DNA from: Gemmatimonadota bacterium
GTDB lineage: Bacteria; Gemmatimonadota; Gemmatimonadetes; Gemmatimonadales; Gemmatimonadaceae
Assembly: GCA_021299375.1 (NCBI GenBank)
Contig: JAJTGR010000045.1
Span: forward strand, 1 to 41,442
DNA length: 41,442 bases
Direction: 5' to 3'
The notes under the pieces are model-generated. The model did not search any database, was not told the origin of the DNA, and saw only the letters and a program-made list of their open reading frames with translations. Made by a program: the position numbers and the translations under genes. This document shows positions 16,722 to 21,945 of this stretch, piece after piece. Position 1 is the stretch's first letter, and every line of letters begins with the position of its first letter.

Positions 16722-18122
16722 GTGCGCCTCACCCAACGCCTCGTCGTCAACAGCGCCATCATCATCGCGCTGCTCATGACCATCGTCCTGGTGGTCGTGG
16801 AATGGCGGGTGCGGCACCATGTGAGCGCGGACGGTCCGGTGGCGACCGCCTCCGACGACATCCTGCTGTCGGAGATCCGCGGGGACATCGCCGTGGCCGG
16901 CGTCATCACCCTGGCCATCGGCATCGTGCTCGCCCGCATGCTGGCGTTGCCGGTGGCCCGCCCCATCGAGGAGCTGCGTGACATCGCCCTGAGTCTGGCG
17001 GCCGGCGACCTATCGCGCCGCCCGTCCCACGCCCTCGTCGGCGGTGAGGTCGGCGACCTCGCCGACGCGCTGCGCCGCATGAGCGAACAGCTCGAGACCC
17101 GCCTCTGGGAGCTGCAGTCAGAGGAGGCCCTCCTCGTGGCGCTCACCGAGTCCCTCAACGAAGGCGTCATCGCCGTCGACGCGCGCAAGCGGGTCGTGCG
17201 CATCAATGAGACGGGGCGGCAGTTGCTCAACCTACGCCAGCCGCTCCCCTTCCCGGCGAGCGAGCTGCCGCTACAGAGCGGCCTCCAGGAGTCGCTGCAG
17301 CTGGTGCTGTCCGGCTCCTCCACGATTGTCCGCGAGGTGCGGGTCGACGACCGGACGCTCGTGCTCACGGTACGGCCGCTCCGAGGCGGCGGCGCCGTCC
17401 TCGCGCTGCTCGACCTGACCACGATCCGCCGCCTGGAAACGGTGCGCAGCGACTTCGTCGCCAACGTCTCGCACGAGCTGCGCACGCCGCTCACGATCAT
17501 CAGCGGATTCGTGGAGACGCTGCAAGATGAGGACCTGCCGCCGGATCTGCGTCGCCAGTTCCTGGGCATGGCCGAGGCCAATGTCCAGCGCATGCAGCGG
17601 ATCGTGGACGATCTGCTCGATCTGTCGCGTATCGAGTCCGGGGGCTGGGTGCCAGCGCCGGAACTGCTCGACCTCGCCGACGTGGCCGCGGACGTGCTCG
17701 GGCCGCTGCAGGTCATCGCGGCTGGCAAGGGCGTGCAGTTGCGCACCGATCTCGGGCCTGACGCCCACCTCGTCTACTGTGACGAAACAGCCGCCCGCCA
17801 GATTCTCAGCAATCTGGCCGAGAATGCGCTGCGGCACACGGCGACCGGCAGGGTCGAACTGTTCTCACGCGCCGAAGCGGGCGGGGTGTGGATGGGCGTG
17901 CGGGATACCGGGTCGGGGATTGGCGCTGAGCACCTGCCGCGCATCTTCGAGCGGTTTTACCGGGCGGATCCGGGACGCTCACGGGAAGCGGGGGGCACCG
18001 GGCTTGGGCTCGCCATCGTCCGTCACCTGACGGAAGCGCACGGTGGTCGGGTGACCGCAGAGAGCACCGTGGGGGTCGGGACCACCATCGCCGCCTGGCT
18101 GCCGCGTCCTCAGTCGGACTGA
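16722..18122 (+). CDS. phoR: Sensor histidine kinase, PhoR-like
   Basis: Membrane-bound partner of the preceding regulator, 466 residues from a GTG start. Two transmembrane helices (about 9-27 and 56-75) bracket a short periplasmic loop of about 28 residues. HAMP (about 76-128), a PAS-like domain (about 135-240), HisKA with phospho-acceptor His251 in VANVSHELRTPL, and HATPase_c with NLAENALRHT, DTGSGIG and GGTGLGLAIV follow. This is the PhoR/ResE domain order. PhoR-type kinases usually sense the state of the Pst transporter rather than a ligand, which fits the very small periplasmic loop. Its last 13 bp overlap the 3' end of the convergent sirtuin gene. PhoR assignment follows from architecture and neighbourhood. 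Confidence 0.85.
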   Translation: MRLTQRLVVNSAIIIALLMTIVLVVVEWRVRHHVSADGPVATASDDILLSEIRGDIAVAGVITLAIGIVLARMLALPVARPIEELRDIALSLAAGDLSRRPSHALVGGEVGDLADALRRMSEQLETRLWELQSEEALLVALTESLNEGVIAVDARKRVVRINETGRQLLNLRQPLPFPASELPLQSGLQESLQLVLSGSSTIVREVRVDDRTLVLTVRPLRGGGAVLALLDLTTIRRLETVRSDFVANVSHELRTPLTIISGFVETLQDEDLPPDLRRQFLGMAEANVQRMQRIVDDLLDLSRIESGGWVPAPELLDLADVAADVLGPLQVIAAGKGVQLRTDLGPDAHLVYCDETAARQILSNLAENALRHTATGRVELFSRAEAGGVWMGVRDTGSGIGAEHLPRIFERFYRADPGRSREAGGTGLGLAIVRHLTEAHGGRVTAESTVGVGTTIAAWLPRPQSD

Positions 18123-18949
18123 CGACGCGGGCGGCGTCCGGCGAACGCTTCAGCGATCAGCCGCGGCAGCATCACGCCAGCCGGCCCCTCGATGGGCAGG
18201 ATGCTTGGCCCCTTGCGCTGCCCATCCATGGTCGGGTTGACCACAATGACCGTCGCCCCGTGGGTCGCGGCGATCCACGGCAGTGACGCCACCGGCTCGA
18301 CGAGACCGGACGTGCCCACCGAAAGAAACACGTCGCACGCCACGGCCGCGTTTCGCGCTTCCTCGAACGGGCCCATGGGCGGCGACTCGCCGAGCCAAAC
18401 CACGTCCGGTCGCAGGGCGGCCCCGCACGCCGGACACGTGGGCACCTCGCCATGCGGCGCGTCGGTGGGCATGACGGAGCCGGGGCACCCGGCGCTGCAT
18501 CGGGCATGCATGAGCGAGCCCTCCAACCGTACCACCTGCTGGCTGCCGGCCCGCTCGTGCAGATCGTCGATGTTCTGCGTGACCAGCGTACAGTGCGCGA
18601 CCCGGCCTGCCAGCGTGGCAAGGGCGGCATGGGCCGGATTGGGCTGGGCCCCTCGAACCATGGCCCGGCGGGCCGCATACCACTGCCAGACCCGGGTCGG
18701 GTGAGCAGCGAATGCCTCCGCCGAGGCCAGCTCCTGCGGGGAGAATTGCGCCCAGACCCCGGTCTGGGCCTCGCGGAAGGTCGGGATCCCGCTCTCGGCA
18801 AGAATCCCCGCGCCGGTGAGCACACAGACGTGCTCGGCAGACCGGAGCGCCCTGGCGGCGACGGTCAGCGCTTCGGCTCGCGTCTGCGGATCGGTTGGCG
18901 GCGGCGACGCGACGCGTCGCCGGTGCAGCGTCTGATCAGGTGGCACCAT
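18110..18949 (-). CDS. Sir2-family (class III-like) protein with catalytic His replaced by Glu
   Basis: Sirtuins use NAD+ to remove acyl groups from lysines. This 279-residue protein has the Rossmann motif GAGILAESGIPTFR (46-59), TQNIDDLHERAG (124-135), four zinc cysteines (151, 155, 172, 175) and RPDVVWLGES. Tyr91 and Arg94 of WYAARR match the YxxR pair that binds succinyl or malonyl lysine in SIRT5/CobB. The general-base His, expected in the (L/M)HG motif, is Glu143 here: the protein reads RLEGSL and the codon is GAG. The usual Ser of GAGIS is also Leu50. Catalysis may be lost or altered. The ATG at 18949 is preferred because a TATAGT box lies just upstream, excluding 18985. It is convergent with phoR. 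Confidence 0.88.
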   Translation of the reverse strand: MVPPDQTLHRRRVASPPPTDPQTRAEALTVAARALRSAEHVCVLTGAGILAESGIPTFREAQTGVWAQFSPQELASAEAFAAHPTRVWQWYAARRAMVRGAQPNPAHAALATLAGRVAHCTLVTQNIDDLHERAGSQQVVRLEGSLMHARCSAGCPGSVMPTDAPHGEVPTCPACGAALRPDVVWLGESPPMGPFEEARNAAVACDVFLSVGTSGLVEPVASLPWIAATHGATVIVVNPTMDGQRKGPSILPIEGPAGVMLPRLIAEAFAGRRPRRQSD

Positions 18950-19040: not shown

Positions 19041-19073
19041 GTGACACATTCGTTGCACGTTCGTGCGCTGTTC
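19041..19073 (+). promoter_or_regulatory. Candidate PhoB-type operator upstream of TonB receptor
   Basis: Three 11-bp units follow without gaps: GTGACACATTC (19041-19051), GTTGCACGTTC (19052-19062) and GTGCGCTGTTC (19063-19073). Units one and two are the best pair. They match the site before the DUF47 gene in 17 of 22 positions by my count. An 11-bp direct-repeat pitch is characteristic of PhoB/PhoP-class binding. No clear -10 follows at the expected distance. Confidence 0.5.
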
Positions 19074-19082
19074 GAAACCTGG

Positions 19083-19131
19083 GTCACGGAGCTTTCGCGG
19101 CATCCGGAGCGCCTCCTGGCGGCTCCGTGAC
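19083..19131 (+). other. Inverted repeat in the leader of the TonB receptor gene
   Basis: GTCACGGAGC (19083-19092) is exactly complementary to GCTCCGTGAC (19122-19131), with 29 nt between. The loop can form an alternative inner hairpin around GGAGCGCC and GGCGGCTCC. It lies 30 bp before the start codon. It could be an mRNA structure affecting translation or a further regulator site, since both arms carry GTGAC/GTCAC. Confidence 0.4.
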
Positions 19132-19161
19132 CGATCGACGCCCTTTCGACCCAGAGTTCCC

Positions 19162-21945
19162 ATGCGGCTTTCCGCCCACGTGCTGTCCGGTGTCGCCCGC
19201 TACCTGCTGCGGGCGTTCGCTGTCGCCGTCGCGCCCCTGCTGCCTCTCACCGTGGTGTCCGCACAGGGCGCCGAGGTTCCCACCGGCAAGATCACCGGTC
19301 GTATCGTCGATGCCGCGACCGGTCAGGGAATCACCGCCGCCCAGATCCAGGTGGTCGGCACGCCCTTCGGCACCCAGTCCGGCGTCGATGGCCGCTACAC
19401 CCTGCTCAAGGTGCCCGCCGGCACCACCACCCTGCAGGTCCGCCGCATCGGTTATGGCCCCAAGACGATCACGGGCATCGTGGTCCCGGCCAACGGCGCT
19501 GTCGAGCAGGACGTGACCCTCAAGACGGCCGAACTGCAGCTCGCCGCGGTGAGCGTGACCGCCACCAAGGAAAAGGGCACGGTCAATGAAGCGCTCAATC
19601 AGCAGAGAAACGCCACCAACGTGGTCAACGCCATCACCGCCGAGCAGATCGCCCGGAGCCCGGACAACGACGCGGCCGCCGCCGCCCAGCGCGTCAGCGG
19701 CGTGACGGTGCAGGACGGCAAGTACCTGCAGGTGCGCGGCCTCAGCGAGCGCTACACCACCGCCTCGCTGAACGGCGCCCGCATCCCGAGCCCGGAGCCC
19801 GAACGCAAGGTCGTGCCACTCGATCTGTTCCCGGCCGGACTGCTGCAGGATGTGACCACCAGCAAGACATTCACCCCCGACCAACCGGGTGACTTCGCCG
19901 GTGCCAACGTGAACATCCGCACCCGGGAGTTCCCGGCCCGCCGCCAGGTGAACTACTCCACGAGCTTCGGCTTCGGTGATCGCGTCCTTGGCCAGACGCT
20001 CCCCTTCGCCCCCCGAGCCGGCGGCGAGCTGTTCGGCAATGCCAGCGCGGCCCGCCGCATTCCCAACGCGATTGCCTCGGCCAACTTCCTGGGCAGCGTC
20101 CAGCAATCACAGTTCAACCAGATGGCGCGCCAGCAGCGCAACGTCTGGAACCCGACGCCCCGCAACGGGGGACTCAACGGTTCATTCGGCCTATCGACTG
20201 GCGGGAACACCATCCTCGGCAAGCGCATCGGCTACGTGCTGAGCGGCAACTACGGCTACTCCGAGGAAGTGCGCGCCGACGAGCGCTATGCCGTGGGCAA
20301 CCAGGGCGCCAACAACACGGTCGTGCCGCTCACCCAGGTGGCCGGCCAGACCGGGCGCAGCAGTGCTCAGTGGGGCGGCATCGCCAATGTCTCGACGCTG
20401 GTGGGCAAGGGCTCGCGCCTCTCGCTCAACAGCACCATCACCCGCAGTGCGGACAACGAAGCGCGGCAGGACCGCGGCTTCGACGAAAACCTCGGCGACA
20501 GCATCGCCCGCACCACGCTTCGGTATGTGGAGCGCGGCGTGGCCACGCTGACGGGCCAGGGTGAACACCAGCTGAGTGAGCGCAACAAGACGGCGTGGTC
20601 GCTCTCCTACGGCAACACCAGCCGCCGCGAGCCCGACCGCTCGGACGTCGTGTACGTCCGCACGCCGGAAGGACCGTACCAGATCCTGTCGTCGCTCGAC
20701 GGCGCGCGCCGGCTGTACTTCGACCTCGAGGAGAACAACCTCACCGGGCAGGTAGACCACACCATCAACCTCGGCGCGGTCGCCAGCCAGAACACGCTCA
20801 AGGTCGGCGCCTACCTGCGGAGCACCGATCGCCGATCCGATGCCCCCATCTTCGCCTTCATCACGCGGGCCAACGAAAGCATCGTGCGGCAGTCGCCCGA
20901 CGTGATCTTCGGCGCCGCTCAGGCCTGCGAGACCTGCTCCGCCATCAATGTGCAGCCCATCGGGCAGGCCGGTTCGTATTCGGCGGACGACCGCACGGCG
21001 GCCGGGTACGTGATGACCGACGTGGGGCTGACCTCGCGGATCCGCATGATTGCCGGTGCCCGCCTCGAGCAAGCCCGCATCAATGTGAGGGCCTCGACGC
21101 AGGGCGGCTTCACCGCCGATGCCGCGCTCGACAACACCGACGTGCTGCCGTCGCTCCTCCTGAACACGCGCCTCACCGAAACGCAGAACCTCCGCTTCGG
21201 CATCACCCGCACGCTCGCCCGTCCCGAGTATCGTGAGCTGGCGCCGGTGACGTTCCGCGACGTGCTCGGTGGCGTGAGTGTCACCGGGAATGCGGCGCTC
21301 GTGCGCTCGCTGATCGACAACGTGGACCTGCGCTGGGAAGCCTTCCCGAACCCCGGTGAAGTGCTCAGCGTGGGTGTCTTTGCCAAGCGCTTCGATCGTC
21401 CGATCGAACGCGTGGAGCAGGCCACCTCCGGCGCCTATCAGGCGCGCTACCAGAACGCGCTCAGCGCGACGAACCTGGGCGTCGAGCTCGAAGTGCGGAA
21501 GCAGCTCGGCTTCCTCGGCGGGTGGGGCGAGTCGCTGACCGGCTTCAGCAACCTGACGCTCATGAACTCGTCGGTGAAGCTCGACCCGACGGGTGGGCTC
21601 ACGGTCACCGACGCCACCCGTCGTCTGGTGGGTCAGGCGCCCTACGTGGTGAACGCGGGCCTCACCTACTCGTCACTCTCGGGCAGCACCAATGCCACGA
21701 TCCTGTACAACGTGGTCGGCGAGCGCATCACCGCCGCCGGGGTGGTGCCACTGCCGAACATCGTGGAGCGGCCACGCCATCTCGTGGACCTGTCGCTGCG
21801 CTTCCCGGTGCGTGGCAGCCTCTCGGGGCGCGTCGATGCCCGCAACCTGCTCGACGCGCGCACCAGTTTCATGCAGGGTACGCTCGAGCGCGAAGGGTTC
21901 AACATGGGGCGCACGCTCTCCATGGGTCTCAGCTGGCGACAGTGA
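19162..21945 (+). CDS. TonB-dependent outer-membrane receptor
   Basis: A 927-residue outer-membrane transporter powered by TonB. A signal peptide (about 1-34, ending VVSA) is followed by a carboxypeptidase-regulatory-like beta domain (about 40-125, GKITGRIVDAATGQGI) and a plug (about 150-275) with QVRGLSERYTTASLNG and ERKVVPLDLFP. A beta-barrel of about 650 residues follows. The plug segments KTFTPDQPGDFAG and NIRTREFP are typical of the Oar-like receptors often found beside phosphate-stress genes. The ATG at 19162 gives a proper signal peptide; frames further upstream do not. It is followed after 169 bp by a large lipoprotein gene and then pstS. Import of phosphate or an organophosphate is inferred from context; the substrate cannot be read from sequence. 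Confidence 0.92.
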   Translation: MRLSAHVLSGVARYLLRAFAVAVAPLLPLTVVSAQGAEVPTGKITGRIVDAATGQGITAAQIQVVGTPFGTQSGVDGRYTLLKVPAGTTTLQVRRIGYGPKTITGIVVPANGAVEQDVTLKTAELQLAAVSVTATKEKGTVNEALNQQRNATNVVNAITAEQIARSPDNDAAAAAQRVSGVTVQDGKYLQVRGLSERYTTASLNGARIPSPEPERKVVPLDLFPAGLLQDVTTSKTFTPDQPGDFAGANVNIRTREFPARRQVNYSTSFGFGDRVLGQTLPFAPRAGGELFGNASAARRIPNAIASANFLGSVQQSQFNQMARQQRNVWNPTPRNGGLNGSFGLSTGGNTILGKRIGYVLSGNYGYSEEVRADERYAVGNQGANNTVVPLTQVAGQTGRSSAQWGGIANVSTLVGKGSRLSLNSTITRSADNEARQDRGFDENLGDSIARTTLRYVERGVATLTGQGEHQLSERNKTAWSLSYGNTSRREPDRSDVVYVRTPEGPYQILSSLDGARRLYFDLEENNLTGQVDHTINLGAVASQNTLKVGAYLRSTDRRSDAPIFAFITRANESIVRQSPDVIFGAAQACETCSAINVQPIGQAGSYSADDRTAAGYVMTDVGLTSRIRMIAGARLEQARINVRASTQGGFTADAALDNTDVLPSLLLNTRLTETQNLRFGITRTLARPEYRELAPVTFRDVLGGVSVTGNAALVRSLIDNVDLRWEAFPNPGEVLSVGVFAKRFDRPIERVEQATSGAYQARYQNALSATNLGVELEVRKQLGFLGGWGESLTGFSNLTLMNSSVKLDPTGGLTVTDATRRLVGQAPYVVNAGLTYSSLSGSTNATILYNVVGERITAAGVVPLPNIVERPRHLVDLSLRFPVRGSLSGRVDARNLLDARTSFMQGTLEREGFNMGRTLSMGLSWRQ

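Follow-up and report, generated by a model that had tools for sequence, protein, structure and literature searches.

A candidate sirtuin pseudoenzyme with glutamate at the catalytic histidine position in one species of a Gemmatimonadota genus

Introduction

In the class III sirtuin CobB of E. coli, His147, the equivalent of position 143 in the protein described here, is the general base (PMC8556138). The SIRT6 substitutions H133Y and S56Y have each been reported to leave the protein without deacetylase and without ADP-ribosyltransferase activity (PMC6755095). Natural replacement of the catalytic His is known from the class M sirtuins (SirTMs) of S. aureus and S. pyogenes, which carry Gln at this position (Gln137 in S. 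pyogenes SirTM), have no deacylase activity and act as ADP-ribosyltransferases, an activity that is abolished when Gln is changed to His (PMC4518038). Class M genes have a linked macrodomain and, in some groups, GcvH-L/LplA2. A literature search returned nothing relevant on sirtuin pseudoenzymes or on sirtuins in Gemmatimonas.

Here, we analyse a sirtuin gene in a stretch of 41,442 nt (contig JAJTGR010000045.1, referred to as the window at its full length) from a single assembly (116 contigs, 95.9% complete) of one Gemmatimonadota species. As in class M, the catalytic His has been replaced naturally, but the residue found is Glu and not the Gln by which class M is recognized, and elsewhere in the genus the class III-type family of the window protein keeps His.

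Results

A class III-type sirtuin with an altered active site

The gene and the positions discussed below are the following (residue assignments by translation and alignment):
18110..18949, minus strand: SIR2-family gene, 279 aa plus stop, frame uninterrupted, with an ATG start (MVPPD...) common to close relatives
18800..18802, minus strand: Leu50 (CTT) replacing the Ser of GAGxS, equivalent to Sir2-Af1 Ser24
18668..18679, minus strand: Y91-x-x-R94, the class III acidic-acyl pocket pair, kept
18569..18571, minus strand: Ile127 replacing the genus-invariant Val of TQNVD, a conservative change
18521..18523, minus strand: Glu143 (GAG) replacing the general-base His of the HG motif
18392..18394, minus strand: Leu186 replacing the invariant Phe of VVWFGE, equivalent to Sir2-Af1 Phe159
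18380..18382, minus strand: Pro190 replacing Leu/Ile/Met of the FGExLP segment
18305..18307, minus strand: Gly215 replacing the genus-invariant Asn after GTS
18290..18292, minus strand: Val220 replacing the genus-invariant Ala of the GTSxxVxPA motif

The protein matches PF02146 (E 2.6e-45, 155 bits against a curated cut-off of 24) and is the sole SIR2 match in the source genome. The initial annotation had described an otherwise intact gene with Glu in place of the catalytic His and Leu in place of the Ser of GAGIS, in which the NAD motifs, the four zinc cysteines and the YxxR pair are kept. Codon reading and alignment to Sir2-Af1 confirm both replacements (GAG on the minus strand for Glu143; CTT at 18802-18800 for Leu50, aligned to Ser24), and the uninterrupted frame agrees with an intact gene. 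Translation and alignment with relatives likewise bear out the retained motifs: GIPTFR, TQNxD and zinc cysteines 151, 155, 172 and 175 are all present, and Gln125, Asn126, Asp128, Phe58 and Arg59 are kept, so that part of the NAD machinery remains. The protein scored below the cut-offs of the NCBIfam CobB model NF040867 (223.9 bits, cut-off 320) and of the subfamily model NF001753 (237.8 bits, cut-off 243), in a scan of the window protein alone, so that these low scores may reflect the lineage and not the variant.

The AlphaFold2 model of the window protein has the sirtuin fold (mean pLDDT 81) and agrees in secondary structure with the model of the His-bearing orthologue from L003, although AlphaFold2 is insensitive to point substitutions and this agreement shows only that sequence and fold are compatible. 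The fold is held in common with Sir2-Af1 (Foldseek E 1.5e-22, TM 0.77/0.86, 42% identity in the structural alignment) and with SIRT5 (E 1.1e-21). The window protein shares the zinc cysteines, TQNxD, GIPxFR and YxxR with Sir2-Af1 and the class III sirtuins (SIRT5, E. coli CobB) but differs from them in having (i) Glu for the catalytic His, (ii) Leu for the Ser of GAGxS and (iii) Leu for the Phe of VVWFGE. Two of these positions, Leu50 and Leu186, are also the sites of two mutants deposited for Sir2-Af1, S24A and F159A (1m2h, 1m2k). From motif alignment, we take His133 and Ser56 of SIRT6 to be window positions 143 and 50. Both are altered together in the natural window protein, to Glu and Leu, whereas each SIRT6 mutant was made in the laboratory with one Tyr substitution, and SIRT6 is a mammalian sirtuin from a different class.

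Six changes at genus-invariant columns are private to the window protein (S50L, V127I, H143E, F186L, N215G and A220V; other members have 0-5), and all six lie in or beside Sir2 catalytic motifs; L190P shares the motif VVWFGExLP with F186L. Codon comparison shows that Ser to Leu, His to Glu and Asn to Gly each take at least two base changes, and that the catalytic-site changes together need at least eight base substitutions. Ile at the TQN[V/I]D position is present in other sirtuins, for example in viral-contig homologues. We dropped N215G as a catalytic lesion, as sirtuins differ in the residue that follows GTS, which is Ala in Sir2-Af1.

Distribution of the Glu replacement

We compared 30 species of the genus, the source genome included. 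An orthologue with 66-86% identity to the window sirtuin occurs in 26 of the 29 others, and the three assemblies without one are 57-84% complete. The genus family is class III-type (CobB/SIRT5-like), and the window gene is its syntenic orthologue. His143 and Ser50 are present in all 26 congeneric orthologues, and three aligned order-level homologues also carry His at position 143. The initial annotation had asked whether Glu is conserved in the phylum and had named His in all relatives as counting against its reading; His throughout is what the alignment shows. As judged from these aligned sequences, Glu143 is confined to one species, with no conserved Glu class. Outside the genus, none of the seven same-family genomes searched has a SIR2 match. 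A second, distant sirtuin (33-39% identity, a two-piece match) was seen within the genus at G007:C7:15986-16753, in a congeneric assembly listed at 5% contamination.

Genomes were further scanned with the pattern QN[IVM]DxLHxxxG-x7-E-G, which is blind to other spacings and to sirtuins without QN[IVM]DxLH...G. Across 84,980 species genomes, a set from which the source genome may be missing, it matched nothing, nor did it match in viral contigs; among 395 phylum genomes, the window gave the single match. With His in place of Glu, the pattern finds 82 of 298 phylum genomes, so it does detect sirtuins. A class of Glu-bearing sirtuins was sought and not found in these scans, and the uniqueness of the window protein holds within the motif only. 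A second genome-wide pattern, for a purine-ending codon at the His position, returned 44 loci, 38 of which encode Gln; among the remaining six, two frames end in a stop and the other four mostly resemble shifted alignments or chance. Where the catalytic His has been replaced naturally, the new residue is thus usually Gln, and Glu was seen nowhere else within the motif's reach.

The Gln-bearing loci include an arrangement of gut Clostridia in which a tandem SIR2 pair is followed by a microbial-type PARG (PF10021), found in 4 of 4 loci checked (L098:1591-4023, L089:4850-7284, L092:3925-6457 and L079:1038-3462). Both sirtuins of L098 have Gln for the catalytic His (TQNMDCLHT...EFQG and TTNEDCMHT...EIQG), and the first of these motifs is common to many further loci. 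Such an arrangement suggests two writers of ADP-ribosylation next to an eraser, resembling class M with PARG instead of the macrodomain. Scattered CobB-like sirtuins from unrelated bacteria (L074, L096, L100, L104 and L110) carry a single His-to-Gln replacement by one base change; several of these frames are short, and some may be errors or pseudogenes.

Neighbourhood and cell context

The sirtuin gene is flanked by:
16722..18122, plus strand: PhoR-like histidine kinase (HAMP, HisKA, HATPase), convergent with the sirtuin gene
19063..21945, plus strand: TonB-dependent receptor with a CarboxypepD_reg domain, divergent from the sirtuin gene and syntenic in the genus

By Pfam, the PhoR-like kinase adjoins an OmpR-type regulator. 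The gene order in seven relatives is nucleotidase, uridine kinase, response regulator, PhoR-like kinase, sirtuin and TonB receptor, in a set where one relative's stretch begins at the sirtuin and udk of one relative was matched only by a second search. The initial annotation had placed the sirtuin between phoR and a phosphate receptor; the kinase is indeed PhoR-like, but Pfam identifies a TonB-dependent receptor on the other side and does not establish a phosphate role for it. We rejected a special tie of the variant to phosphate signalling: relatives with His have the same synteny, so adjacency to phoR is uninformative on the variant.

The stop ends of the kinase and sirtuin genes overlap by 13 bases (window:18110-18122), whereas ~40 to 160 bases separate their matched regions in relatives. 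The window kinase has its nearest counterpart in L041 (82% identity, against 70% to that of L037), and the sirtuin is closest to those of L037 and L003 (86%). These differing gene histories across the kinase-sirtuin region suggest recombination.

A search of the whole source genome for a macrodomain (PF01661) gave no match, and GcvH-L/LplA is found nowhere among the genes adjacent to the sirtuin; the window gene thus differs from class M in both associations. The source genome encodes two zinc-type deacetylases (PF00850), as do most of the genus, and an acetyl-CoA synthetase (Acs) with the motif PKTRSGKIMRR, the regulatory lysine being kept. This motif is the usual acetylation-controlled motif of Acs. 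Inactivity of the sirtuin need not, then, leave acetylated Acs without a deacetylase.

Selection on the species branch

Changes fall on 6 of 32 invariant columns in catalytic motifs and on 0 of 96 other invariant columns (hypergeometric p 0.0002), for a motif list that was compiled once the changes were already known; with a stricter textbook list, 5 of the 6 changes lie inside the motifs (Fisher p 0.004). Likelihood branch models gave a dN/dS on the window branch of 0.037 against a background of 0.043 (7 taxa) and of 0.059 against 0.041 (11 taxa), in small taxon sets with synonymous divergence near saturation, limits shared by all the purpose-written codon models used here. A branch ratio near background, together with the unchanged other invariant columns, argues against general decay. 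A raised dN/dS in Nei-Gojobori pairs that include the window gene (0.09-0.14 against 0.04-0.07) was discarded, as the likelihood branch model did not confirm it.

In a branch-site mixture model, ~10% of codons are relaxed on the window branch (2dL 24.5), with relaxation highest at codons 215, 178, 143, 138 and 50. Two other branches show relaxation with 2dL of 22.6 and 41 at sites that are not catalytic, so the amount of change on the window branch is unexceptional and its location is exceptional. The branch-site test for positive selection on the window branch was not significant (2dL 0.42). On the species branch, as represented by one assembly, catalytic residues have been lost, the fold is compatible and purifying selection has been kept.

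Discussion

The window protein is probably catalytically dead but folded, and a changed chemistry is less likely. As far as sequence can tell, its deacylase chemistry has likely been lost, and we give about an even chance to a lineage-specific sirtuin pseudoenzyme in which the fold is kept and NAD-dependent deacylation is gone. The ancestor would have been a CobB/SIRT5-like (class III) deacylase inherited throughout the genus. In one species, His143, the general base, would then have become Glu and Ser50 of the cofactor loop Leu, and residues lining the active site would have changed as well (Phe186 to Leu, Ala220 to Val), the fold, the zinc site and the remaining sequence staying under normal purifying selection. 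NAD-dependent deacylation would have ceased, and ADP-ribosyl transfer probably too, and a non-catalytic role such as binding of a protein partner or of an acyl-lysine substrate would have been kept. Acetyl removal, for example from acetyl-CoA synthetase, would pass to the two zinc-dependent deacetylases. Against such a pseudoenzyme, a carboxylate can serve as a base, and Glu143 might support some activity. The kept NAD-machinery residues, the reliance on one assembly and the comparable or stronger relaxation on two other branches weigh on the same side, and the SIRT6 mutants carry Tyr where the window protein has Glu and Leu. Taken further, the objection becomes a reading in which the protein is still a deacylase, Glu143 taking over as general base while the remaining substitutions tune acyl-chain preference. 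This reading fits the kept YxxR pair, the zinc site and the normal overall constraint; it is nevertheless improbable, with Glu unseen at this position in all other motif-scanned genomes and Ser50 and Phe186 altered too.

Loss of chemistry could also mean that the gene has recently become functionless and is heading for loss, its intact frame and low dN/dS recording an earlier history. The patchiness of sirtuins outside the genus implies that they are dispensable in the wider group, and a very recent switch is compatible with a low ratio averaged over the whole branch. Neutral decay would, however, be expected to reach other invariant columns as well, which is not the observed distribution; the gene contains no frameshift or stop, and at least eight substitutions at the catalytic site take time, which makes recent inactivation unlikely, if still the most credible of the alternatives. 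Class M, and enzymes in which a Glu works close to the NAD ribose, suggest by analogy a neofunctionalised protein whose Glu143 would contact the nicotinamide ribose hydroxyls and support ADP-ribosyltransferase or NAD glycohydrolase activity. We consider this quite unlikely. The existence of class M ADP-ribosyltransferases without deacylase activity (PMC4518038) and the clustering of multi-base codon replacements in the active site speak for it. The Gln-bearing sirtuins that we found mostly keep GAGIS, however, whereas the window Ser is Leu; the genome has no macrodomain and the adjacent genes no GcvH-L/LplA; positive selection was not significant; and SIRT6 S56Y was reported to lack ADP-ribosyltransferase activity too (PMC6755095). 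A new Glu-based NAD chemistry is in this sense possible but unsupported, and that a class III deacylase was rebuilt in one lineage around a catalytic Glu and now uses NAD as an ADP-ribosyltransferase or NAD glycohydrolase, a change separate in origin from that of the Gln-bearing class M sirtuins, seems to us doubtful, with a slightly smaller chance again. The two readings of the initial annotation, a new enzymatic variant or an NAD/acyl-lysine reader, are likewise no more than possible. With no macrodomain and with an altered Ser loop that most Gln-bearing proteins keep, the simplest reading is that NAD-dependent catalysis has been lost and the fold retained.

An assembly or sequencing artefact has to be weighed for a species with a single genome in one assembly of 116 contigs at 95.9% completeness, and the initial annotation had named sequencing error and a lone mutation as possible sources of an isolated Glu. 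Neither fits codons replaced at several bases, six catalytic-motif sites and normal constraint elsewhere; the replacements are in frame, at several separate sites and free of indels, and the neighbouring genes of the contig are intact and normally constrained. We regard an artefact as highly improbable.

Annotation routinely takes a sirtuin to be an enzyme, and an automatic pipeline would call the window gene an NAD-dependent deacylase despite its missing catalytic base and cofactor-loop serine. The putative pseudoenzyme is a natural multiple active-site mutant that stands beside presumably active orthologues of 86% identity, which makes it well suited to showing cleanly whether sirtuins can be retained for a non-catalytic role or rebuilt around Glu.
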